A stretch of DNA of 24,856 nt, from positions 1-24,856 of the IMG/VR virus record IMGVR_UViG_3300008266_000435; one strand, given 5' to 3'. Shown one piece after another: positions 2,239-22,453 of this stretch (position 1 is its first letter; every line of letters begins with the position of its first letter). A program made the position numbers and the translations under genes. The stretch comes from a virus. The notes under the pieces are model-generated. The model made no database searches. It worked only from the letters and a program-made list of their open reading frames with translations, and was not told the origin of the DNA.

Positions 2239-3173
2239 GGATTGCATTGTTAGATATAAAGGTAGGCACTAAAGTAGGCAGTAATTTCACCGCAGTTAAT
2301 ATGCGTAATATGCTATTGTTGCAAAAAGAATTAGGTGCTGATTTTTATTATTCAACAGACCAATTAATAAATAATAATAAGGAATATGATGCTGTTTTAG
2401 TAGGTTTTGGCAGTATGAATAGTGAGGCAGTATTAACAAGAGATTTTATTAAAAGACATAATAATATTATTTTTATTGTTGGCGAGTATGAGCAAAAAAT
2501 CAATCCTGCTTTATCTTATGCAAAAAATAACTTTAAGTTAGTTAGAAATTACGAAGGTAGAAACGAAGTTCAGCATAAAGATAGGCAGATTAGTGACAAT
2601 ATCTTAAATCTCAACTTGCTAATTGCAAAACAACCAAACCAATTAATTACAAAAAAATATGATTGCATCTATTATGGTAGATGGAGAGAAGATAGAGCAG
2701 ATTACTTCAAAAAATATATTCAAGGAGGATTGTTTTTAAGTACATCAACTAAAAATATGAAGAAATTTAAACACGAGGGATGCAATCCTAAATATTTAGA
2801 TACAATTAGTTGGGCAGAAAGAAAGGAAACATTGAACTTATTTAAATACTCATTGTACATAGAAGATAAATACACTCACCAAGTATTTAATAATTTAGCT
2901 AATAGATGGTATGAGGCGGGATTCTGTAATGTAGTTATGTTTTTTGATATAAATTGTTGGAATACTATTCGTAAATCAGAAATTGCATACTATGAGGAAC
3001 AAATTAAAGATTACATCGTAACAGACTATAAATCCTTACAAGAAAAAATAGATTATTGTAATAAAGATTTTTCAAAGCATTTGGCAATTCAAAAAGGATG
3101 GAGAATGCAAGAGGTACAATTAAGAACAAATATGATTAATAATTTAAAAAGTATAATATGTTCAAAGAATTAG
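2235..3173 (+). CDS. GT-B-like glycosyltransferase, layout similar to T4 DNA glucosyltransferases
   Basis: A 312-residue protein with an N-terminal Rossmann-like start (MRIALLDI) and alternating strand/helix pattern. It has a central IYYGRWREDRADY segment and, later, LYIEDKYTHQVFNN-LANRWYEAGFCNVVMFFD. As I remember T4 beta-glucosyltransferase, it has the same order: an MKIAIINMG start, a VIYGGSFRSGQRES segment, then a GDKNYNDNFITLRVWETMAS-like segment leading to a strand ending in D, and a helical C-terminus. This suggests a GT-B fold using a nucleotide sugar. The acceptor could be DNA, protein or another sugar. It is translationally coupled to the ParB-like gene (ATGA) and precedes the terminase genes. 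Glycosyltransferase is moderately supported; DNA as substrate is inference. Confidence 0.6.
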   Translation: MRIALLDIKVGTKVGSNFTAVNMRNMLLLQKELGADFYYSTDQLINNNKEYDAVLVGFGSMNSEAVLTRDFIKRHNNIIFIVGEYEQKINPALSYAKNNFKLVRNYEGRNEVQHKDRQISDNILNLNLLIAKQPNQLITKKYDCIYYGRWREDRADYFKKYIQGGLFLSTSTKNMKKFKHEGCNPKYLDTISWAERKETLNLFKYSLYIEDKYTHQVFNNLANRWYEAGFCNVVMFFDINCWNTIRKSEIAYYEEQIKDYIVTDYKSLQEKIDYCNKDFSKHLAIQKGWRMQEVQLRTNMINNLKSIICSKN

Positions 3174-3370
3174 GCTATTTTAAAGAATATTACGTTAACA
3201 ATAAATATGTAGGTACATTGCCAAGTGTTAAGGATAGAGATATAATTGGTTATAATGGTAAACAAAAAGAAATGATTACTACTCAGATTAAATTTAAAAA
3301 CAATAAATTAATTAAAATAGGAACAGAAGTTGAAACATTTCTTTACCCATTATGCGGTACAAAAATATAA
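3158..3370 (+). CDS. Hypothetical protein, 70 aa
   Basis: The ATG at 3158 overlaps the preceding gene by 16 bases, and the frame runs to a stop just before the small terminase start. The product is predicted to be mainly beta: YYVNNKYVGTLPS, then ITTQIKFKNNKLIKIGTEVE, ending LYPLCGTK. It has no signal peptide, membrane segment or metal site. I recognise no family. The codon pattern (A/T-rich third positions) and tight packing match its neighbours, so it is likely a real gene. The place next to terminase does not reveal a job. Confidence 0.55.
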   Translation: MFKELGYFKEYYVNNKYVGTLPSVKDRDIIGYNGKQKEMITTQIKFKNNKLIKIGTEVETFLYPLCGTKI

Positions 3371-3371
3371 T

Positions 3372-3836
3372 ATGAACTTACCCTCTAAACATTCAGATTT
3401 TATAAGACTTGTAGCAAATGGAGAAACCCAATCCAATGCTTATAAGTTAAGCATAGGTAAGAAAGGGGTAAGTAAGCAGGTAAGTGAGGTTAAGGGCAGT
3501 CAATTAGCCAAAAAATACGCTGATTTAATCGCTGAGCAAAGAGATAACCTAAAAAAGGTAGTAGAGGAAGCACAAAAGGAGAAAGTCGCTGAAATCGCTC
3601 AAAAACGCATAATGTCAGCAGCCGAAAGAATGGAATGGCTAACAAAGCTTGTTGATGGAACAATAAAAGCAAAAAGACCATTTGTTGTAGGTGGCAAGAT
3701 AATGGAATATCCCGAAGAACCAAGCCACAGCGATAGAGTGAAAGCACTTGCAGAACTCAATAAGATGGATGGAAGCTATGCACCAACCCAAGTAAATCAA
3801 CAAAACACTGGAATAATAAAAGTAATCCGTGAGTGA
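3372..3836 (+). CDS. terS: Terminase small subunit
   Basis: A 154-residue protein. Residues 1-60 give the helix-turn-helix pattern of phage small terminases: FIRLVANGETQSNAYKL, then KKGVSKQV and a GSQLAKKYADLI helix. A charged helical region follows (DNLKKVVEEAQKEK, IMSAAERMEWL) that would form the oligomer core. The C-terminus, rich in Gln and ending IKVIRE, is a likely contact for the large subunit. It would recognise phage DNA and recruit the large terminase. ATG 3372 is preferred over the in-frame TTG at 3330, which lies inside the preceding gene. Its stop overlaps the GTG of the large terminase by eight bases, as expected for a coupled pair. Confidence 0.85.
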   Translation: MNLPSKHSDFIRLVANGETQSNAYKLSIGKKGVSKQVSEVKGSQLAKKYADLIAEQRDNLKKVVEEAQKEKVAEIAQKRIMSAAERMEWLTKLVDGTIKAKRPFVVGGKIMEYPEEPSHSDRVKALAELNKMDGSYAPTQVNQQNTGIIKVIRE

Positions 3837-5073
3837 AACCATAATTAGGTTACAAAAAAGGCACACCAACCAAGAGTTGATAATCCAAACAAAAAGGAGA
3901 TTCAATGTTCTTAAATGTGGAAGGAGATTTGGCAAGACATCAATAGCCAAAGAGTTAATCATTGAACCTGCATTGGATGGATTTCCCGTTGCTTATTTTT
4001 GCCCAACATACAAAGACCTTAACGACTTTTGGATTGAGGTTGTTAAGATTTTAGGCGATGCCATCAAGCAGAAGAATGAGCAACTAAAACAAATTCGATT
4101 AATAACGGGAGGTGTTATTGATATGTGGTCATTAGACGAACCCGACTCAGGCAGAGGAAGAAAATATTGGAGAGTAGTAATTGATGAGTGCGAGAAAGCA
4201 AAGAAACTAAAGATAGCTTGGAATGGAACAATAAGAGCAACCCTAACAGACTATAAAGGCGATTGTTGGTTTCTCTCAACTCCGCAATTCGGTAAAACAT
4301 ACTTCAAAGAATTATTTAAGCGTTCAGACGATGACAAGTATAAACACGAATGGCAAGGATGGAAGTTCAGCACTTACGACAACCCATTTATGGATGCTCA
4401 AGAAATAGATTCAGCCAAAGCAACACTTGATCCAATGTATTTCAATTGTGAATACTTAGCTGAAGATGTTACTCTTGATACTATGTTATGGGCCTATGCT
4501 TATGAAGAAGAAAAGCATCTTGGCAAGGTAGAAATTTTATCTAACTTAGAGATAATTCTATCATTTGACTTCAACAAAAATCCAATCAGTTGCTCAGTTG
4601 TTCAAGTACCTAACTACGACACTATCCGAGTGATTGAAACGATTAAACTTGCTAACTCAGATATATTTGAACTATGCCAAGTTATCAAGACTAAGTATGG
4701 CAATGCTTTATTTTTAGTTACAGGGGATGCAAGTGGTAGTTCAACTTCTGCAATGGTGCAAGACAATATGAATTACTACAAAATTATTAAATCACAATTG
4801 AACCTTTCCAATAATCAGTTAGTTGTGCCAGTGGTAAATCCAAGGTTAGCAGATAACCGAGTGTTGGTGAATAGTTTATTGAGCAGAGGAAATGTGCTAT
4901 TGGATAGAGATAACACCAAGTCATTACAATTCGACTTTGAGAATGTAACGGTATTGCCTGATGGATCAATTAAGAAAGCAGATAGAAGCGACCCGGCACA
5001 ACAAGCCGATGCCTTAGATACGTTTCGCTATGCTTGTAATTCTTTTTGTTTAAAATTTCTCAATCGTAATTAA
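3829..5073 (+). CDS. terL: Terminase large subunit (packaging ATPase and nuclease)
   Basis: A 414-residue protein starting at GTG 3829. The ATPase half has Walker A CGRRFGKT at residues 30-37, Walker B VVIDE ending at Glu120, and a coupling motif FLSTPQFGK near 150. The RNase H-like nuclease half has an Asp in LSFDFNKNP (D247), a second in VTGDASGSS (D300) and the last in DALDTF (D394/D397). All key residues of both centres are therefore present. The enzyme cuts concatemeric DNA and drives it through the portal. It is at the short end for TerL but looks complete. Unusually, the portal gene is about 9 kb downstream, not next to it. Confidence 0.95.
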   Translation: MSETIIRLQKRHTNQELIIQTKRRFNVLKCGRRFGKTSIAKELIIEPALDGFPVAYFCPTYKDLNDFWIEVVKILGDAIKQKNEQLKQIRLITGGVIDMWSLDEPDSGRGRKYWRVVIDECEKAKKLKIAWNGTIRATLTDYKGDCWFLSTPQFGKTYFKELFKRSDDDKYKHEWQGWKFSTYDNPFMDAQEIDSAKATLDPMYFNCEYLAEDVTLDTMLWAYAYEEEKHLGKVEILSNLEIILSFDFNKNPISCSVVQVPNYDTIRVIETIKLANSDIFELCQVIKTKYGNALFLVTGDASGSSTSAMVQDNMNYYKIIKSQLNLSNNQLVVPVVNPRLADNRVLVNSLLSRGNVLLDRDNTKSLQFDFENVTVLPDGSIKKADRSDPAQQADALDTFRYACNSFCLKFLNRN

Positions 5074-5105: not shown

Positions 5106-5720
5106 ATGTTTAGCGTAATTATCCCTACCCTTTGGAAATCAGACAAGATTAAGCCATTAATTCAATCCCTAATAGATTGTGAGTTGGTAAATGATGTCTT
5201 TATTATTTCCAACGAAAGAAACCCAATGGAGGATGAATTTACCTACCTAAAAAAAGTATTCGTATACTCTGCTAAAGAAAATTATTACGTTAATTATTCT
5301 TGGAATTGGGGTGTGAATTGTGCCTCAATGAAAAACATTGCCATACTTAACGATGACATCTTAATCGATACAAATGTATTTAGTTTCCTACTCGATAAGT
5401 TAACCGAAGTTGGAGTAGTAGGTATGTGTTTTGAGAATTATGCCTTAAAACAATCCGTATCAATGAACCTCACAGATGTTATTGAAAGACCTTATGGTTA
5501 TGGATGTGCAATGTTCATCCACAAGAACAACTATGTAGATATTCCATTTGACTTGAAGATAGCGTGTGGAGATGACTACCTCATTAAATACGCTAAAGGC
5601 AAAGCTAAGAAGCTATACGGATGCAAAATTGAAAGCGATATAAGCACCACAACACGACTTCCTGAGTTCGGACTTATTCAAGCAGAGGATTACAAAATCT
5701 TTACAGAAAACTATAAATAA
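5106..5720 (+). CDS. GT-A glycosyltransferase, family 2-like
   Basis: A 204-residue protein beginning FSVIIPTLW, the classic first strand of family 2 glycosyltransferases. The segment NYSWNWGVNCA (63-73) corresponds to the conserved N-x-G-x-x-x-A helix. ILNDD (80-84) supplies the metal and nucleotide-sugar binding acidic pair in place of DxD. A late GDDYLIKYAK segment gives the acceptor-side Asp residues. No membrane helix is present, so it is cytoplasmic and soluble. It is directly followed (no gap) by a methyltransferase, hinting that the two act on the same substrate, perhaps a sugar on a virion protein or on the host surface. The acceptor cannot be read from sequence. Confidence 0.8.
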   Translation: MFSVIIPTLWKSDKIKPLIQSLIDCELVNDVFIISNERNPMEDEFTYLKKVFVYSAKENYYVNYSWNWGVNCASMKNIAILNDDILIDTNVFSFLLDKLTEVGVVGMCFENYALKQSVSMNLTDVIERPYGYGCAMFIHKNNYVDIPFDLKIACGDDYLIKYAKGKAKKLYGCKIESDISTTTRLPEFGLIQAEDYKIFTENYK

Positions 5721-6272
5721 ATGGCACACCAAGAGCAAATCAACTTCTGCAAATCAGTTAAAGAATTTATGCCTGACTTTTTCAAAGGAGTTAGCGTATT
5801 AGATATTGGTAGCTTAGACATCAATGGAAACAACCGTTATTTGTTTGATAATTACGATTACACTGGCATTGATATTGGTGAGGGCAAGAATGTAGATATA
5901 GTTTGCAAAGGCCACGAATTTAAGCCAAACGGAGGCCATCAATTCGATGTTGTTATTTCAACAGAATGTTTTGAGCACGATAAATATTGGAGGGAAACGG
6001 TAAGGAATGTTATAGACAATCTATTGAAGAGTGGAGGTTTATTCATATTCACTTGTGCCACCACAGGCAGACCTGAACACGGAACTAAGAGAACATCACC
6101 ATCGGACTCACCATTTACAAGTAAGGCAAAAGATTGGGAGGATTACTATATGAATTTAACTGAGGGCAACTTCTTTGGAAACTTTGACTTTGAAAAAGAC
6201 TTTTTGATTTACCAATTTAAAACACGATTAGAATATCCTCAAGATTTGTACTTTTGGGGAATAAAAAGATAA
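5721..6272 (+). CDS. SAM-dependent class I methyltransferase
   Basis: A 183-residue protein with the Rossmann methyltransferase signature. Motif I is VLDIGSLDINGN (26-37). The acidic end of strand 2 is YTGIDIGEGKNVD (47-59, ribose-binding Asp51). Motif IV is FDVVISTECFEH (75-86). A post-motif strand GGLFIFTCATTG follows. There is no DPPY/NPPY, so it is not a typical adenine or N4-cytosine DNA methylase, and there is no Pro-Cys motif of a C5-cytosine enzyme. It resembles small-molecule or sugar methyltransferases. It begins on the base after the glycosyltransferase stop, so a joint role in making a methylated glycan is a reasonable inference. Confidence 0.82.
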   Translation: MAHQEQINFCKSVKEFMPDFFKGVSVLDIGSLDINGNNRYLFDNYDYTGIDIGEGKNVDIVCKGHEFKPNGGHQFDVVISTECFEHDKYWRETVRNVIDNLLKSGGLFIFTCATTGRPEHGTKRTSPSDSPFTSKAKDWEDYYMNLTEGNFFGNFDFEKDFLIYQFKTRLEYPQDLYFWGIKR

Positions 6273-7008: not shown

Positions 7009-7212
7009 ATGAATTGGTTGCTAACTCTAAATAACAATGGATTTGTTGCTAAAGGCCATTCCTGCGGATGCCAAGGGAACAATCAATATCATAGATTTTC
7101 CAACGACACAACAGAAGTAAAAGTTTACAAGAAATTAAACCAATATCAAATAAAAATAAATAATGTTTGGAGCGATAAAAAAGCACTTGCAGAACTTGAA
7201 TCCGAGTTCTAA
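7009..7212 (+). CDS. Hypothetical protein, 67 aa
   Basis: This starts on the base after the membrane protein stop, a tight coupling. It contains a HSCGCQGNN segment near residue 17 that could bind metal. A strand region (EVKVYKKLNQYQIKINNVW) and an acidic helical end follow. The last 50 bases overlap the start of the tail chaperone gene in another frame, longer than the overlaps elsewhere in this window. I recognise no family. A tail role is possible from position only. Confidence 0.5.
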   Translation: MNWLLTLNNNGFVAKGHSCGCQGNNQYHRFSNDTTEVKVYKKLNQYQIKINNVWSDKKALAELESEF

Positions 7213-7774
7213 TGTCATAGTTAAGGATGGATTTACTTTGGAATTTGCCTTTGAGTGCAATGGTACGAAGTATTATGAATTTAAGGATAAAAACTCTATG
7301 CCATTCCAACGTGGATTAGATGCCTTAATATTCTTTGAGGAACTTCAAAATGGAGTTACAAGGGATTACTTGCTTAACCATATCGAAGTAATGAAGAAAT
7401 GTACCGAGGTCAAGAATGGTAAATCTTTGGACTTAAAAAATATGTTTATAGAAATAGCACGATTTGAGGAACGACTAAAATACATTATAAGTCCTGAGAT
7501 AATCTATAAGGTTGCCTCAGTTGCCTTTATTGATGACAAAGAAAGCGTATTAAGATACGACCACGAGTATAATAAACATAAAATTGAGAGTTGGAAGAAG
7601 TATGGTGATGGTTTTTTTTTGCACGAACCTTTAAAGAGATTGATACCGTTTTTAATTACATACGGAGACAGTTCCCAAGCGTATTTGAGGGTGGTGGAAC
7701 AAATAGAAAAGATGCAGGCGGTGGCTCATTCGTTGATAATGTTAGAGGAGGAATTGAAAGCAGAGAACGATTAA
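7163..7774 (+). CDS. Tail assembly chaperone (gpG-like), with frameshift site
   Basis: A 203-residue protein directly upstream of the tape measure, the standard place for the lambda gpG/gpGT chaperone. Features are a beta start (VIVKDGFTLEFAFECNG, KYYEFKDKNSMPFQRG) and a helical middle (RFEERLKYIISPEIIYKVASVAF). The later YGDGFFLHEPLKRLIPFL segment is familiar from Bacteroidetes phages. At 7612-7620, codons 150-153 cross a run of nine Ts reading GGT TTT TTT TTG, a perfect X-XXY-YYZ slippery sequence. A -1 shift there enters a frame that stays open to 7896 (see next entry). ATG 7163 overlaps the preceding gene by 50 bases; in-frame TTGs at 7187 and 7196 are alternative starts. Confidence 0.72.
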   Translation: MFGAIKKHLQNLNPSSNVIVKDGFTLEFAFECNGTKYYEFKDKNSMPFQRGLDALIFFEELQNGVTRDYLLNHIEVMKKCTEVKNGKSLDLKNMFIEIARFEERLKYIISPEIIYKVASVAFIDDKESVLRYDHEYNKHKIESWKKYGDGFFLHEPLKRLIPFLITYGDSSQAYLRVVEQIEKMQAVAHSLIMLEEELKAEND

Positions 7775-7896
7775 AATTAATAGTGATGAAATTTCTGCCT
7801 CCTACATATCAAATAAATACATTAACTTTGTATGATTTCTTTTTCTTTGCAAATGAGGCAAAGAGCCAACACGACAAGCGAACCGCTAATAAAAGA
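7609..7896 (+). CDS. Probable -1 frameshift extension of the tail chaperone (gpT-like), or separate small ORF from 7786
   Basis: In the -1 frame relative to the chaperone, the sequence is open from just before the T9 run to a TAG at 7897-7899. A shift at 7612-7618 would give a chaperone of about 150 residues plus about 91 new ones. The new part has a Gly-rich middle and a patterned C-terminus: KFLPPTYQINTLTLYDFFFF then ANEAKSQHDKR. The part past 7774 is not covered by any other gene and looks protein-like, resembling the T domain of gpGT chaperones. The TAG overlaps the GTG of the tape measure. An internal GTG-ATG at 7783-7788 could instead start a 37-residue protein. The two possibilities cannot be separated by reading. 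Confidence 0.55.
7612..7621 (+). promoter_or_regulatory. Slippery T9 sequence for -1 frameshifting
   Basis: Nine Ts (7612-7620) followed by G, read in the chaperone frame as GGT TTT TTT TTG. This gives two overlapping ideal heptamers, T-TTT-TTT and T-TTT-TTG. I see only a weak 4-base stem downstream (CCGT with ACGG around 7646-7665), so stimulation by a strong hairpin is not evident. RNA polymerase slippage on the T run is an alternative mechanism. Confidence 0.5.
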
Positions 7897-7898
7897 TA

Positions 7899-10166
7899 GT
7901 GGAAAACGTAATAATAAAATTTACTGCCGACACAACGGGATTACAACCTGCGGTCGACCAACTTAAATTACTTGGAAAGATTAGCGAAGAGGATGCCAAA
8001 AAGATTGATGAGATTAATCAATCACAAGCCAAGTATCTAAATACATTAAAAGCTACAACTAAGGAAGCAGGAAACTTTTCCAATGAAATATCACAATTAA
8101 AAAGCGAAATTCAAGCAGGAGTATTGGAGGGAGTTGCTGAACATTTTGCTGAGATGGGTAAGGAGATGGAGGTTGCAGGTAAAAAAAGCAAAACGCTAAA
8201 GCAAGAATTAAAAGAACTAAAAGCACAGATTGCAAGTGGTGGATTGGATGCAAAACAATTATCCGAAGCAACCAAGAGAGCGGCAGAACTTACCGACCAT
8301 TTAGGAGATGTAAACCAAAAGATAAAGGCATTATCAAGCGATACAAAAAGAATTGATGCAGTAGTTGAAGGATTTAGAGGATTAGCGGCAGGGGTAGCAA
8401 TTACTCAAGGTGCAATAGGTTTATTGGGTGGCGAGAATGAAAAAGTTGAAAAAACTTTATTGAAAGTTCAATCAGCAATGGCATTGCTAACGGGTATTCA
8501 AGAGATAGCAAATTTAGCAACTGGCGAGGGAATATTAAAGACAACATATTTATCAGTAGCACAAAGATTAGCGGGTAAAAGTGCCACGATTATGGGTGTT
8601 GAAATTACTGCTGCTATGGCTGCTGCAACTGCTGGTATATCATTAATAGTTGCAGGGATTGCCTATTTAGTTGTTGAAATGAGTAGTACCGAGAAGTCAG
8701 CAAAGCAGATACAAGAAAGATTAGGCAAGATGTATGAGAAAGATGCTGAGGTTTATGCCAATGTATTAAAGAAAAGACAACAACTATTGCAAGGAAGTAG
8801 AGAGGGTGAATTAAAAGCACTTCAAGTAGGTTATGACCAAGAATTTAGGGAACGTAAAAGAGCACAAAAAGAAACAGGGCAAAGTCAAAAATCATTCGAT
8901 GCAGAGACAAAAGTAAATATTGAATTGTTTAATAAGCAAAGGGATGAAATAAATCAAAAGTGGAATGAAAAAGAAAAGAAAGATTTAAAAGATCAACAAG
9001 ATAAAAAAGCAAAATTAAAGGAAAAAGCAGATGCCGAAGCATTAAGAAAGGCGGAAGAAGAAGCACAAAAAAAAGCAGAGGCAATAGCCAAGGCAGAGGA
9101 AGAAGCCAACAAAAGAGCAATAGAAGATGTTGGTTTAACCGAGCAACTACAAAAGAATTACTACAAGCAGTTAGACATTCAAAAAAAGTACCAAAAAAGC
9201 AGTCTTGAGATTGACGAAATGTATGCAAGAATACAGTCAGAAGGTCGTTATAAGACATCAGAAGAAATCTATGGTCAGATTGAAAAGGAACTAAAAGACT
9301 ATGAGGATTTAAAGAAAAAGCAAACGGATATTGATGATAAATACTTAGAAGAAAAGGCAAAGAAAGAAGAACAATATCGAGAGTTAGCAAAGCAAACAGC
9401 CTTACAAATGTTAGAGAATACTGCTGCATTTGCATTTGACCAAATTGAGCAGAACCTACAACAAGAAACTGAGTTAAAGATTGCTGCCGCAGAAGAAGAG
9501 TTGAAAAAGCAAATGGAGGGTAGAGAGTTATCTGCTGCACAACAACAAGCATTGGAAAGGCAATCACAAAGAGAAATTGCCAAAATTAAAAGCGATGCAG
9601 CAAGAAAGCAAAGACAAGCGGATATAGTACAAGCAGCAGTTAATGGAGCATTGGCAATAACAAGAGCCTATGCAACAATGGTTGATCCAATCTCAGCAAG
9701 TATTGCCGCAGTAGGTATAGGGGTAGTAACGGGATTGCAGATTGCAGCCATTAAAAATCAACCGTTACCTAAATTCGCTAAAGGAACAAAAGGAGTTGAA
9801 GGGGCAGGAACGGACACAAGCGACTCTATACTTGCATACCTTTCAAAAGGTGAAATGGTTATACCAACAAAGACCAAAGAAAGCTATTTTCCTGCCTTAG
9901 ATTTAATCTTTGATAAAAAGGTAAGCCCAAGTATCGCCAATGAATTATTAATTGAAGCATCGAAAGGAAACTATAATATTTCTAATGACTATAATAATCC
10001 AGTGTATGTTAATAGTTCAGTAGCTATTGACTACGATAGGTTAGATAAGTTATTTAGCAGAAACAAGAGCACTACCAACATCAATATGGATGAGGCAGGA
10101 TTTAGGAAGTATGTTATAGCTGAGAACGTAAAAACCGAATATTTAAACGCAAGATTTAGGAAATGA
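7899..10166 (+). CDS. Tail tape measure protein
   Basis: A 755-residue protein from GTG 7899, beginning ENVIIKFTADTTGLQPAVDQL, a typical tape measure N-terminus. Long Lys/Glu/Ala/Gln-rich coiled coils occupy about 20-155, 265-390 and 450-570. Two hydrophobic stretches, about 159-178 and 236-260 (AAMAAATAGISLIVAGIAYLVV), could insert in the host membrane during DNA delivery. The C-terminal FAKGTKGVEGAGTDTSD and AYLSKGEMVIPTKT segments match tape measures of many Bacteroidetes phages. Length sets tail length; at about 1.5 angstrom per residue this would suggest a tail of roughly 110 nm, an estimate only. The stop overlaps the next start (ATGA). Confidence 0.93.
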   Translation: MENVIIKFTADTTGLQPAVDQLKLLGKISEEDAKKIDEINQSQAKYLNTLKATTKEAGNFSNEISQLKSEIQAGVLEGVAEHFAEMGKEMEVAGKKSKTLKQELKELKAQIASGGLDAKQLSEATKRAAELTDHLGDVNQKIKALSSDTKRIDAVVEGFRGLAAGVAITQGAIGLLGGENEKVEKTLLKVQSAMALLTGIQEIANLATGEGILKTTYLSVAQRLAGKSATIMGVEITAAMAAATAGISLIVAGIAYLVVEMSSTEKSAKQIQERLGKMYEKDAEVYANVLKKRQQLLQGSREGELKALQVGYDQEFRERKRAQKETGQSQKSFDAETKVNIELFNKQRDEINQKWNEKEKKDLKDQQDKKAKLKEKADAEALRKAEEEAQKKAEAIAKAEEEANKRAIEDVGLTEQLQKNYYKQLDIQKKYQKSSLEIDEMYARIQSEGRYKTSEEIYGQIEKELKDYEDLKKKQTDIDDKYLEEKAKKEEQYRELAKQTALQMLENTAAFAFDQIEQNLQQETELKIAAAEEELKKQMEGRELSAAQQQALERQSQREIAKIKSDAARKQRQADIVQAAVNGALAITRAYATMVDPISASIAAVGIGVVTGLQIAAIKNQPLPKFAKGTKGVEGAGTDTSDSILAYLSKGEMVIPTKTKESYFPALDLIFDKKVSPSIANELLIEASKGNYNISNDYNNPVYVNSSVAIDYDRLDKLFSRNKSTTNINMDEAGFRKYVIAENVKTEYLNARFRK

Positions 10167-12343: not shown

Positions 12344-13188
12344 TGGCAACGAGCCTTATAGATTTACAAAATAGTTTTGTAAGATTTCACGACCAAGAAT
12401 TTATTACGGACAATGATTGTGGAATTGTTGTAGATACTTGTTTACCGATATGTGAGGCAGGAGATTTAAAGATGCAATTTAAAGTTACATCAAACGATTA
12501 TGCAACATCAACAAACTTATTAAGTGCTTTTCAAGTAAGAAGGTTAACAAGTAGTGGATTGACTACAATAACAACGGTAGGTAAATCCATTCAAACCATA
12601 TCAACAAACAATTACATTATATTTCTTCAATTTGACATATCGTCTTTGCTGAATGGATTAAATGATGGAGATTGTTTCCAATTACAATTTAACTTTTTAA
12701 AAGATGAGCCACCAGCGTACCTATCAATAACATCAATAACTTGTTTTAAATATTGTGTAGATAAATGTTTTACAAGTCGCATAACTTATACTAATAATGA
12801 GGATGCCTTTGGATTTATTTATCCCGATGCTGAGAACAGAAGAAATGCAATAAGATTGCCAATGTATGCCACAAGTCCTGCCTTTGACATCGAGCAACAA
12901 ACTTATGTTAGAAGCAATGGAGAAAGAACAAAAGTATTTGCAAGATTAGCCAAAAAATATAAATTTGTTACCGACTTCTTGCCCGAAGAAATACATCAAA
13001 AGTTAGTTGTAGCACTTAACCACGACAACGTATTAATAGCAACATCAACAAACTATCAATTGGAATGTACTTTTGAGAACGAATACAATCAAGACTTTCC
13101 AAGTATTATGCAAGGGATGAATGTGTGGCCTGCAGATTTTCAAGTTTATGAAACACCATTTAACGAAATAAATAATAATTGTGGATAA
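12343..13188 (+). CDS. Tail/baseplate-associated structural protein
   Basis: A 281-residue beta-rich protein. Its ATG shares a base with the previous stop (TAATG). A cysteine-containing first quarter (DNDCGIVVDTCLPICEAGD) and a central FKYCVDKCF pair suggest disulphides or a metal site. The second half (IRLPMYATSPAF, TYVRSNGERTKVFARL, then MNVWPADFQVYETPF) is reminiscent of tail-tip accessory proteins of Bacteroidetes phages. It may sit with the preceding 726-residue protein at the tail tip. No enzyme motif is visible. Confidence that it is a gene is high; the role is inferred from position. Confidence 0.65.
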   Translation: MATSLIDLQNSFVRFHDQEFITDNDCGIVVDTCLPICEAGDLKMQFKVTSNDYATSTNLLSAFQVRRLTSSGLTTITTVGKSIQTISTNNYIIFLQFDISSLLNGLNDGDCFQLQFNFLKDEPPAYLSITSITCFKYCVDKCFTSRITYTNNEDAFGFIYPDAENRRNAIRLPMYATSPAFDIEQQTYVRSNGERTKVFARLAKKYKFVTDFLPEEIHQKLVVALNHDNVLIATSTNYQLECTFENEYNQDFPSIMQGMNVWPADFQVYETPFNEINNNCG

Positions 13189-14056
13189 AGGAATATTAAT
13201 AATAGCAGTAGGACATCCTAACTATGGAAAGTTAGCTGCTAACTTAGCAATGTCCATTAAAGGCAGTAATTGCACATTGCCTATTCATTTGGTTTATACT
13301 GAGGGAACATTGCGAGGTATTGGCGAAGACTATGAAAGATTTTTTGATACAAAAGCCGAATGTCCTGCTGAATATTTAAAGAATAAAGGTGAGGATTGTT
13401 TTATAAAAGTAAAGGCACACGCTAACGATTTAAGCCCATTTAAGGAAACATTATTTTTAGATGCTGACATAATAATGATAAACAACAATCTACTTTTAGA
13501 AACGATTGAGAGCCTAAAAGATGTTGATTTCACCGTTAAGAACTCAGGATTTAGAAACTATGAATCCGAAACAATAACAAAGGATTCTATGCAATGGGCA
13601 AACTTATTAGAAATTAAGGAAGCATACGGATTTACTAATGAAGATATTTGGAATGTACACTCAGAATTTATTTGGTGGAAAAAAACCGAAGCAAACGACA
13701 AACTATTTAAAGATTGGATTTATAACTTTGAGAATTTAAAAGTAAGTAACATCGAGTTTGGAGGTTGTATTCCCGATGAACTACCTTTGTGGATTGCAAT
13801 GATCCAAAACAAAATAACACCACATCAAGAAATGTTTCATCCTACATTTTGGCCAATGGATTCCAAAAAGCAAATGAGGATTACAGACCTTAGAAATGAT
13901 TATTGTGGAATATCTATTGGAGGCAACAACCTTGCACCACTTGTTAAAAATAATTATGATATATTAGTTTCATTATTCACAAAGATTACGAATATGAGAT
14001 ACAAATACTTTGCACAGCCAAAGAAGAAATGGCTACCCGAAAGACATACCTACTAA
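13181..14056 (+). CDS. GT-A glycosyltransferase, family 8-like
   Basis: A 291-residue protein from GTG 13181, overlapping the preceding stop by eight bases. It starts with a Rossmann-like strand (GILIIAVGHPNYGKLAANLAMSI) and has the metal-binding D-x-D in LFLDADIIM (Asp94, Asp96). This is typical of nucleotide-sugar transferases like glycogenin and family 8 enzymes. Later segments (EFIWWKKTEAN, then FGGCIPDELPLWIAM) fit the acceptor side. There is no membrane helix. It lies between tail and head genes, so its timing of expression is probably late, consistent with a virion protein or late sugar target. Glycosyltransferase is well supported; donor and acceptor are unknown. Confidence 0.78.
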   Translation: MDKGILIIAVGHPNYGKLAANLAMSIKGSNCTLPIHLVYTEGTLRGIGEDYERFFDTKAECPAEYLKNKGEDCFIKVKAHANDLSPFKETLFLDADIIMINNNLLLETIESLKDVDFTVKNSGFRNYESETITKDSMQWANLLEIKEAYGFTNEDIWNVHSEFIWWKKTEANDKLFKDWIYNFENLKVSNIEFGGCIPDELPLWIAMIQNKITPHQEMFHPTFWPMDSKKQMRITDLRNDYCGISIGGNNLAPLVKNNYDILVSLFTKITNMRYKYFAQPKKKWLPERHTY

Positions 14057-21264: not shown

Positions 21265-21804
21265 ATGGCTTATTATCCATCAGGTTGCGATGAGAATATT
21301 CAAGAGCATAGTTGTGGTGGTTGTGGGGTTGAATTGGCCCGTGTAAGACGTGCTGCATTCATCAATAAAACATACTACCCAACATTAATTGCCGATGCAG
21401 AAAATGTATCAGTATGGAACGCAGGAATTGCTTCTGGTGCCATAATTATAATCCCTGAAACACAAGGAGATTATGATGGCGGTGCTCCACAAATGGGGCA
21501 AGGTTATGGAGATTCAGAAGAAACTCTTAATGCCTACCTATTTACAGCAATGATTAAAGATCCAAATTATGCAGGCAATAGAAATTTTTACAATTCTATC
21601 AAAGGAAGTAGAAACTTTCACTTTGCATTTGCATCGGAAACAATTTTGAGAATATCGGATGAGCCGGTAACAATTATACCAACCAATCCAATTGCTAACG
21701 ATTTGAAGCAAGAGGTAGTTTGGGATGTTCAAGTAAAATGGACATCAGATAATTTTGCTGACGAGTACGATACTCCAGATGTTTTCACTTGTTATGTTCC
21801 ATAA
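21265..21804 (+). CDS. Major tail (tube) protein, paralogue 1
   Basis: A 179-residue beta-rich protein with an A-rich leader (AAAAATAAAATAAA) like that of the capsid gene, indicating strong expression. An intrinsic terminator follows directly. It starts with YYPSGC and has a Cys8-His15-Cys17-Cys20 cluster (HSCGGC), then ARVRRAAFI and WNAGIASG. The later SEETLNAY, PNYAGN, KGSRNF, NDLKQEVVW and KWTSD segments are shared with the next gene. Position after the completion and terminator genes, size and expression signals suggest the tail tube. A major non-tube virion protein is the alternative. Confidence 0.65.
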   Translation: MAYYPSGCDENIQEHSCGGCGVELARVRRAAFINKTYYPTLIADAENVSVWNAGIASGAIIIIPETQGDYDGGAPQMGQGYGDSEETLNAYLFTAMIKDPNYAGNRNFYNSIKGSRNFHFAFASETILRISDEPVTIIPTNPIANDLKQEVVWDVQVKWTSDNFADEYDTPDVFTCYVP

Positions 21805-21847: not shown

Positions 21848-22453
21848 ATGTATTATCCATCAAATTGCAATGAAATATCAACTCACGATTGTGGGGGATG
21901 TGAGATAGAGTTAGGTCGAGTGAGGGCGGTTGCCTTTGTTCACAAAAGCTATTATTCTACATTGGTGGCAGGTATTGAGGATTTGAATACTTGGAATGCA
22001 GGGAGATTGGCAAATAAAATATTTGTTTATCCCGATGTAAATGGGGAGTTTAATGGAGGTTCAGCGATTACGGGGAGAGGCTTTGCCAAGGCAGAGGAAA
22101 CATTGATGGCTTACAATTATGAGGTGCAATTTAATATTCCTAATTATGAGGGCAATATTGCACATTGGAACGCATTGAGAGGTTCAAGAAATTACTACAT
22201 TATCTTTTGCACAGAAACACAAATGCACATCACTAATAGGATATGTACTATTGTGCCGAGAAATGACATTAAAAACGATTTAAAACAAGAAGTTATTTGG
22301 AGTTGCGTAAGCAAGTGGACTTCGGATAGTTTCCCAACAATATACGATAAGTTAGACGATGCATTTAATTGTATAATAACAAATGTAAATTATTTATTGC
22401 AAGAGAATGGATTTTATTTATTGCAAGAAGATGGTTCAAAAATAATAATATAA
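21848..22453 (+). CDS. Tail-tube-like protein, paralogue 2, with C-terminal octapeptide repeat
   Basis: A 201-residue protein plainly homologous along its length to the preceding gene. Shared blocks are YYPS, CGGC, RVR, WNAG, EETL, PNYEGN, GSRNY, NDLKQEVIW and KWTSDSF, and it retains the metal-site-like Cys7-His13-Cys15-Cys18. It differs by an added C-terminal tail of about 25 residues with two near-identical octapeptides, YLLQENGF and YLLQEDGS. The terminator just upstream suggests lower expression than paralogue 1. It may be a minor tube subunit, a tube-end protein or a decorated variant. The leader is T/A-rich and lies after the U-tract. Confidence 0.65.
   Translation: MYYPSNCNEISTHDCGGCEIELGRVRAVAFVHKSYYSTLVAGIEDLNTWNAGRLANKIFVYPDVNGEFNGGSAITGRGFAKAEETLMAYNYEVQFNIPNYEGNIAHWNALRGSRNYYIIFCTETQMHITNRICTIVPRNDIKNDLKQEVIWSCVSKWTSDSFPTIYDKLDDAFNCIITNVNYLLQENGFYLLQEDGSKIII
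22391..22434 (+). repeat. Two 20-base direct repeats, 24-base period
   Basis: Near-identical copies at 22391-22410 and 22415-22434 (18 of 20 bases equal) encode the octapeptides YLLQENGF and YLLQEDGS at the end of the second tail-tube-like gene. The similar Leu-rich motif LLLE-x-G occurs in structural proteins of many phages, as I recall. It is probably a short beta repeat of the protein, not a DNA-level element. Confidence 0.75.

Follow-up and report, generated by a model that had tools for sequence, protein, structure and literature searches.

In the viral sequence analysed here (IMG/VR record IMGVR_UViG_3300008266_000435, positions 1 to 24,856; the whole 24,856-nucleotide stretch is called the window), the gene directly before the tape measure gene probably encodes a tail assembly chaperone that is recoded in the manner of lambda G/GT or P2 E/E', with a −1 slip ~50 codons before the stop. 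Because the slip would fall so far upstream of the stop, the two products would have alternative, not added, C-termini. With less assurance, we lean towards a wider reading: a chaperone family unrelated by sequence to the known ones, in which −1 frameshifting swaps C-terminal domains, the same 42–74 codons encode both endings, both are selected, only the N-terminal part is common to the two forms, and the swap is ancient. The swap layout persists at ~30% protein identity or less and with different tape measures.

All features of the locus are on the plus strand. The zero-frame ORF (7163–7774, 203 aa) would supply the N-terminal part common to both forms (codons 1–150) and the short-form C-terminus, and within it a run of nine Ts (T9, 7612–7620) is read GGT TTT TTT TTG. 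The first seven of these form T_TTT_TTT (7612–7618), an X_XXY_YYZ slippery heptamer in zero-frame phase. The −1 frame opens only at 7609, just after a TGA at 7606–7608, and stays open to 7896, ending in a TAG (7897–7899) that has one base in common with the GTG start of the tape measure gene (7899–10166, 755 aa), which the chaperone ORF and its extension abut. From the first T to its TAA at 7772–7774 the zero frame runs for 53 codons, ~50 of them after the run, and the dual-coded overlap of zero-frame tail and −1 extension occupies 7621–7771. The earlier note had described this phase, the open −1 frame and the two frames open together, and all are as it reported; its 91-codon extension is real, although the count is 92 codons after the run, or 95 from the first T (7612–7896). 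Beyond the 53 dual-open codons, 41 codons of the extension run alone, and the extension carries a conserved C-terminal motif, L(T/S/N)xYxFxxxxxE.

In the model that we propose, two proteins would be made from one start in the gene preceding the tape measure. Most ribosomes would translate 7163–7774 into the 203-aa form, and a fraction would slip one base back in tandem on U_UUU_UUU (7612–7618) and continue in the −1 frame. The resulting long form, of ~245 aa, would consist of codons 1–150 followed by FFFARTFKEID...LTLYDFFFFANEA... up to the tape-measure start. We infer both the shift on the ribosome and its efficiency. The two forms would act as lambda gpG and gpGT do, with many short copies coating the tape measure and few long copies recruiting the tail tube protein.

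Runs such as T9 are not unusual in this AT-rich DNA: the window has two, compared with 6.3 expected from shuffles. At the other run (155–163), a −1 shift reaches a stop after 6 codons, which agrees with the earlier statements that the −1 frame closes there within seven codons and that the run alone does not predict an extension. T runs of at least 7 are rarer on the coding (+) strand of the window (4) than on the − strand (23).

The relatives that we compared are IMG/VR metagenomic contigs, many of them near-identical. A first scan returned 12 close relatives, all with T9 in the same register and an open −1 frame. Alignment-based scans reached relatives with 53–60% identity in the extension, and later ones gave 24 and then 50 distinct genes (66 IMG/VR loci encoding relatives, with more in the last scan). 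Exactly nine Ts, in the same register, occur in 50 of the 50 distinct relatives, including L203, which is 27–30% identical at the protein level. The overlap is exactly 53 codons throughout this set, except in L203 (71) and one contig that ends early, and the −1 frame opens 0–24 bases 5′ of the run in every member. Given the zero-frame protein and local codon usage, the probability that the −1 frame is open over the overlap is 0.0035–0.05 per sequence (8 sequences), yet none of the 50 distinct homologues, and none of the deeper ones, has it closed. It is the conservation, not the presence of the run, that goes beyond chance. Homologues without a slip site or with −1 stops, to which the earlier note had looked as evidence against its reading, did not turn up: all those examined have a slippery heptamer and a −1 frame free of stops across the overlap (in some, L197 among them, a contig end cuts the sequence short). 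In one relative, L063, the chaperone ORF is ~65 codons longer at its N-terminus, where it is apparently joined to upstream sequence.

The last scan added the deep relatives L268–L272, L281, L290, L292, L329, L332 and L333. By run length, the 17 deep lineages comprise 14 with T9, one with T8 (L271) and two with T6. Of the latter, L205 keeps the layout with GAT TTT TTC, that is, T_TTT_TTC, and L281 has T_TTT_TTA; both sites fit the X_XXY_YYZ rule, and T_TTT_TTA is the HIV-type site (PMC5009743). The conservation of the T run for which the earlier note had suggested testing therefore stands for the 50 distinct relatives but gives way in these three deep lineages. With T_TTT_TTN present in 17 of 17, the element common to all lineages is the −1 slippery heptamer U_UUU_UUN, not T9 itself. 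The slip lies at codon 140–160 (63 in one gene cut by a contig end), the overlap spans 42–74 codons and the extension 92–108, the longest being that of L203, whose tape measure is of other sequence. Where the next large ORF is visible, the extension ends in, at or just before it, and most of the 17 lineages have the C-terminal motif L(T/S/N)xYxF in common.

Divergence within the close clade points to protein-level constraint that changes along the gene. Upstream, the values at zero-frame codon positions 1/2/3 are.029/.025/.203; they become.104/.125/.165 within the overlap and.017/.201/.063 once the zero-frame stop is passed. The last pattern reads as the wobble of the −1 frame, and the flat pattern of the overlap as two frames constrained at once. 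For each frame we then compared amino-acid changes with those obtained when the observed substitutions were placed at random. Between L001 and L184, the −1 frame of the overlap has 22 changes versus 30.7 by chance (p = 0.0005) and the zero frame 26 versus 31.2 (p = 0.02), whereas the third frame shows no deficit (32 versus 30.1). Between L150 and L151, the −1 frame has 23 changes versus 32.7 by chance, and 0 of 2000 randomisations were as low. Deep pairs in general, of which these two are examples, show such a deficit in the −1 and zero frames of the overlap and none in the third; for close pairs taken singly, the overlap test is often not significant. Past the zero-frame stop, the −1 frame is conserved in 13 of 13 pairs (p ≤ 0.007, BLOSUM score), which share ancestry and are not 13 independent tests. 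These comparisons indicate that the extension is under protein-level selection, with constraint on both frames where they overlap and, past the zero-frame stop, on the −1 frame only. The purifying selection in the −1 frame for which the earlier note had suggested looking is therefore present in both regions. Its proposal of a lambda G/GT-like product with a quite different C-terminus gains support from the heptamer, the open −1 frame and the dual selection, all of which are evident in the aligned homologues.

Two simpler accounts of the extension fare poorly against these data. One makes 7786–7896 a separate small gene, for which the in-frame ATG at 7786–7788, 12 bases 3′ of the zero-frame stop in the window and in the close clade, would serve as start. 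This ATG is not conserved, many relatives having neither ATG nor GTG there, and constraint on the −1 frame already extends over the whole overlap 5′ of this position. We therefore reject it as an independent start and regard a separate gene as very improbable. The other account, that the true gene is a single ORF with T10 and that T9 is a sequencing or assembly error, draws on the error-prone nature of homopolymers. However, the same T9 recurs in dozens of independent contigs and T10 was never seen among the homologues, relatives with no long homopolymer keep the same two frames, and the zero-frame tail is itself under selection. Such an error is scarcely credible, and we reject it also.

The means of slipping merits closer weighing. 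Transcriptional slippage would have the polymerase add an extra U on T9, so that ordinary translation yields the long form, as in Shigella mxiE, where a run of nine Ts likewise gives an extended product (PMC3711429; PMC5009743). Slippage of this kind is reported on Tn with n>8 (PMC3711429), and exactly nine Ts, that lower limit, occur in most lineages, whereas the heptamer needs only seven. In this phage, the chance that G-F-F-L is encoded with T9 is ~0.12, so its fixation over many lineages must have been selected or strongly constrained, and T9 conservation is somewhat tighter than the heptamer requires, which counts against a ribosomal mechanism. On the other hand, the conserved Leu codon and the third Phe in the −1 frame go some way towards accounting for the two extra Ts, and as 72% of Leu codons are TTR, having T9 and not just the heptamer exceeds expectation only mildly. 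Unlike mxiE, the gene has deep relatives that keep its layout with T6 followed by C or A (L205 and L281) or with T8 (L271), so a long T run as a transcriptional slippage site does not hold across the family. Transcriptional slippage thus seems unlikely as the main mechanism, though it may coexist with a ribosomal shift and add to it where nine Ts are present.

The sequences favour ribosomal −1 frameshifting, in particular tandem slippage, because the T6 members keep X_XXY_YYZ heptamers on runs too short for known T-run transcriptional slippage. In E. coli, U_UUU_UUU shifts less readily than A_AAA_AAG (PMC5009743). A search downstream for a conserved RNA structure that might stimulate the shift found none (folding z-scores 0 to −2.2; RNAalifold −1.9 kcal/mol, one compensatory pair). 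A GGAA-type sequence lies ~14 bases 5′ of T9 in the window and derives from an upstream Trp-Lys motif.

So, is the recoded protein a tail assembly chaperone? The gene has no family match in PHROGs or Pfam, no relative among 50,697 phage records and none found by pattern scan of GTDB genomes. Automatic annotation would miss the extension, as the gene belongs to no PHROGs or Pfam family. Since it matches no known chaperone by sequence, we assign the putative role from position and layout; it is in these respects that the earlier designation as a tail chaperone gene stands, and no known family matches it. The tape-measure ORF does match annotated tape-measure genes of Parabacteroides and Bacteroides phages (tblastn, 30% identity, E 2e-5), as well as phrog_21917, of unknown function (E 1.2e-10), and the next gene resembles tail proteins that come mainly from phages of Flavobacteriia. 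From these two similarities, the host is probably a member of the Bacteroidota. A real frameshift in a protein of some other function would fit the missing sequence match to any known chaperone family, and also an overlap much longer than in lambda, P2, HK97 or TP901-1. Yet in every deep lineage whose contig shows the next large ORF, the gene immediately precedes the tape measure and its −1 extension stops at or close to the start of that ORF; two of these lineages have tape measures of other sequence (L203 and L205). We consider a non-chaperone function improbable, slightly more so than transcriptional slippage.

Elsewhere in the window, ORFs at 5106–5720, 5721–6272 and 13181–14056 resemble, by eye, enzymes that transfer sugar or methyl groups; they lie between packaging and tail genes. 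Two adjacent paralogous ORFs (21265–21804 and 21848–22453; YYPS.C...H.CGGC..EL.RVR), with no PHROGs match, are possibly tail tube proteins.

Cultured phages of Bacteroidota offer parallels at the same position. The phrog_8914 proteins of PD491P1, B40-8 and P2559Y, some annotated as tail assembly chaperones, are also encoded before the tape measure, as single ORFs of ~250 aa with no significant homology to the gene here. At the C-terminus they have a motif similar to the one in the −1 extension (E 0.0012 and 19% probability by profile comparison). By eye it is tempting to regard the fusion as a homologue of these single-ORF chaperones, but only the last 48 residues align weakly and the best profile probabilities, 6% for the fusion and 19% for the extension, are not significant and do not amount to similarity, so we set homology aside.

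The phrog_8914 genes have a homopolymer of their own. An A9–A10 run (KKK[IV], codon 131–132 of ~250) occurs in seven of seven (L075, at 4317–4326, L078, L079, L080, L081, L083 and L085), and slipping there, whether forwards or backwards, would lead to a stop within 0–25 codons and so to a short form. The chaperone gene is split at this run in P2559S (L082, A8) and BF8P1 (L084, A11). AAA makes up 0.67 of Lys codons overall; the B40-8 gene has 8 AAA and 13 AAG, with three of the AAA at the run site. The run may follow the same two-product logic with opposite polarity, or the splits in P2559S and BF8P1 may be homopolymer errors. Elizabethkingia phage TCUEAP3 has a 99-codon ORF, unannotated and in the −1 frame (L076:3322–3621), between a putative chaperone (2924–3409) and the tape measure (3626); the 28 codons by which it overlaps the chaperone gene hold no X_XXY_YYZ heptamer.

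Programmed frameshifting has a classic example in the control of tail length, where two chaperone forms are made in a set ratio and the long form consists of the short one plus a domain. The two forms here would instead have mutually exclusive C-termini, from one DNA stretch under selection in both frames, and one may ask what it is in the short form that the long one has to lack. To our knowledge, which is general and not from a survey, the overlap is one of the longer conserved dual-coding regions in a tailed phage. A literature search, with most subscription journals outside its coverage, returned no published long dual-coded overlap in a tail chaperone. For telling ribosomal from transcriptional slippage in Bacteroidota-type hosts, nature already offers a set of variant sites: T9, T8, T6C and T6A.

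With lambda G/GT the locus has in common a gene before the tape measure and an X_XXY_YYZ heptamer leading into a −1 extension, here under selection; it has no sequence homology to a known chaperone family. Lambda likewise makes two products from one start by a −1 shift just upstream of the tape measure, and its long form has a separate C-terminal domain (PMC5009743). However, the lambda slip site, GGGAAAG, is close to the end of G and GT therefore holds almost all of G, whereas the long form here would lack the last ~50 residues of the short form and have them replaced. Gene order differs too, in that no major tail protein was identified just upstream of the chaperone gene in the window. From position and layout, we propose that the gene works like G/GT, while membership in that group is not supported by homology. 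In HK97 and TP901-1, as in lambda and P2, the chaperone is next to the tape measure, and the −1 frame is open for 20 (lambda), 11 (P2), 16 (HK97) and 13 (TP901-1) codons before the stop, compared with 42–74 here. Mechanistically, P2 is the closest system. Although P2 E/E+E' shows no sequence similarity to the chaperone here, it too shifts by −1 on a T6G site, T_TTT_TTG ('GGTTTTTTG'), directly before the tape measure gene T (PMC3931495), and its extension also ends at the tape-measure start. P2 slips ~6 codons before the E stop. The −1 slip is thus known in phage tail genes, but there the frames overlap only briefly, and here 150 bases would encode two endings.
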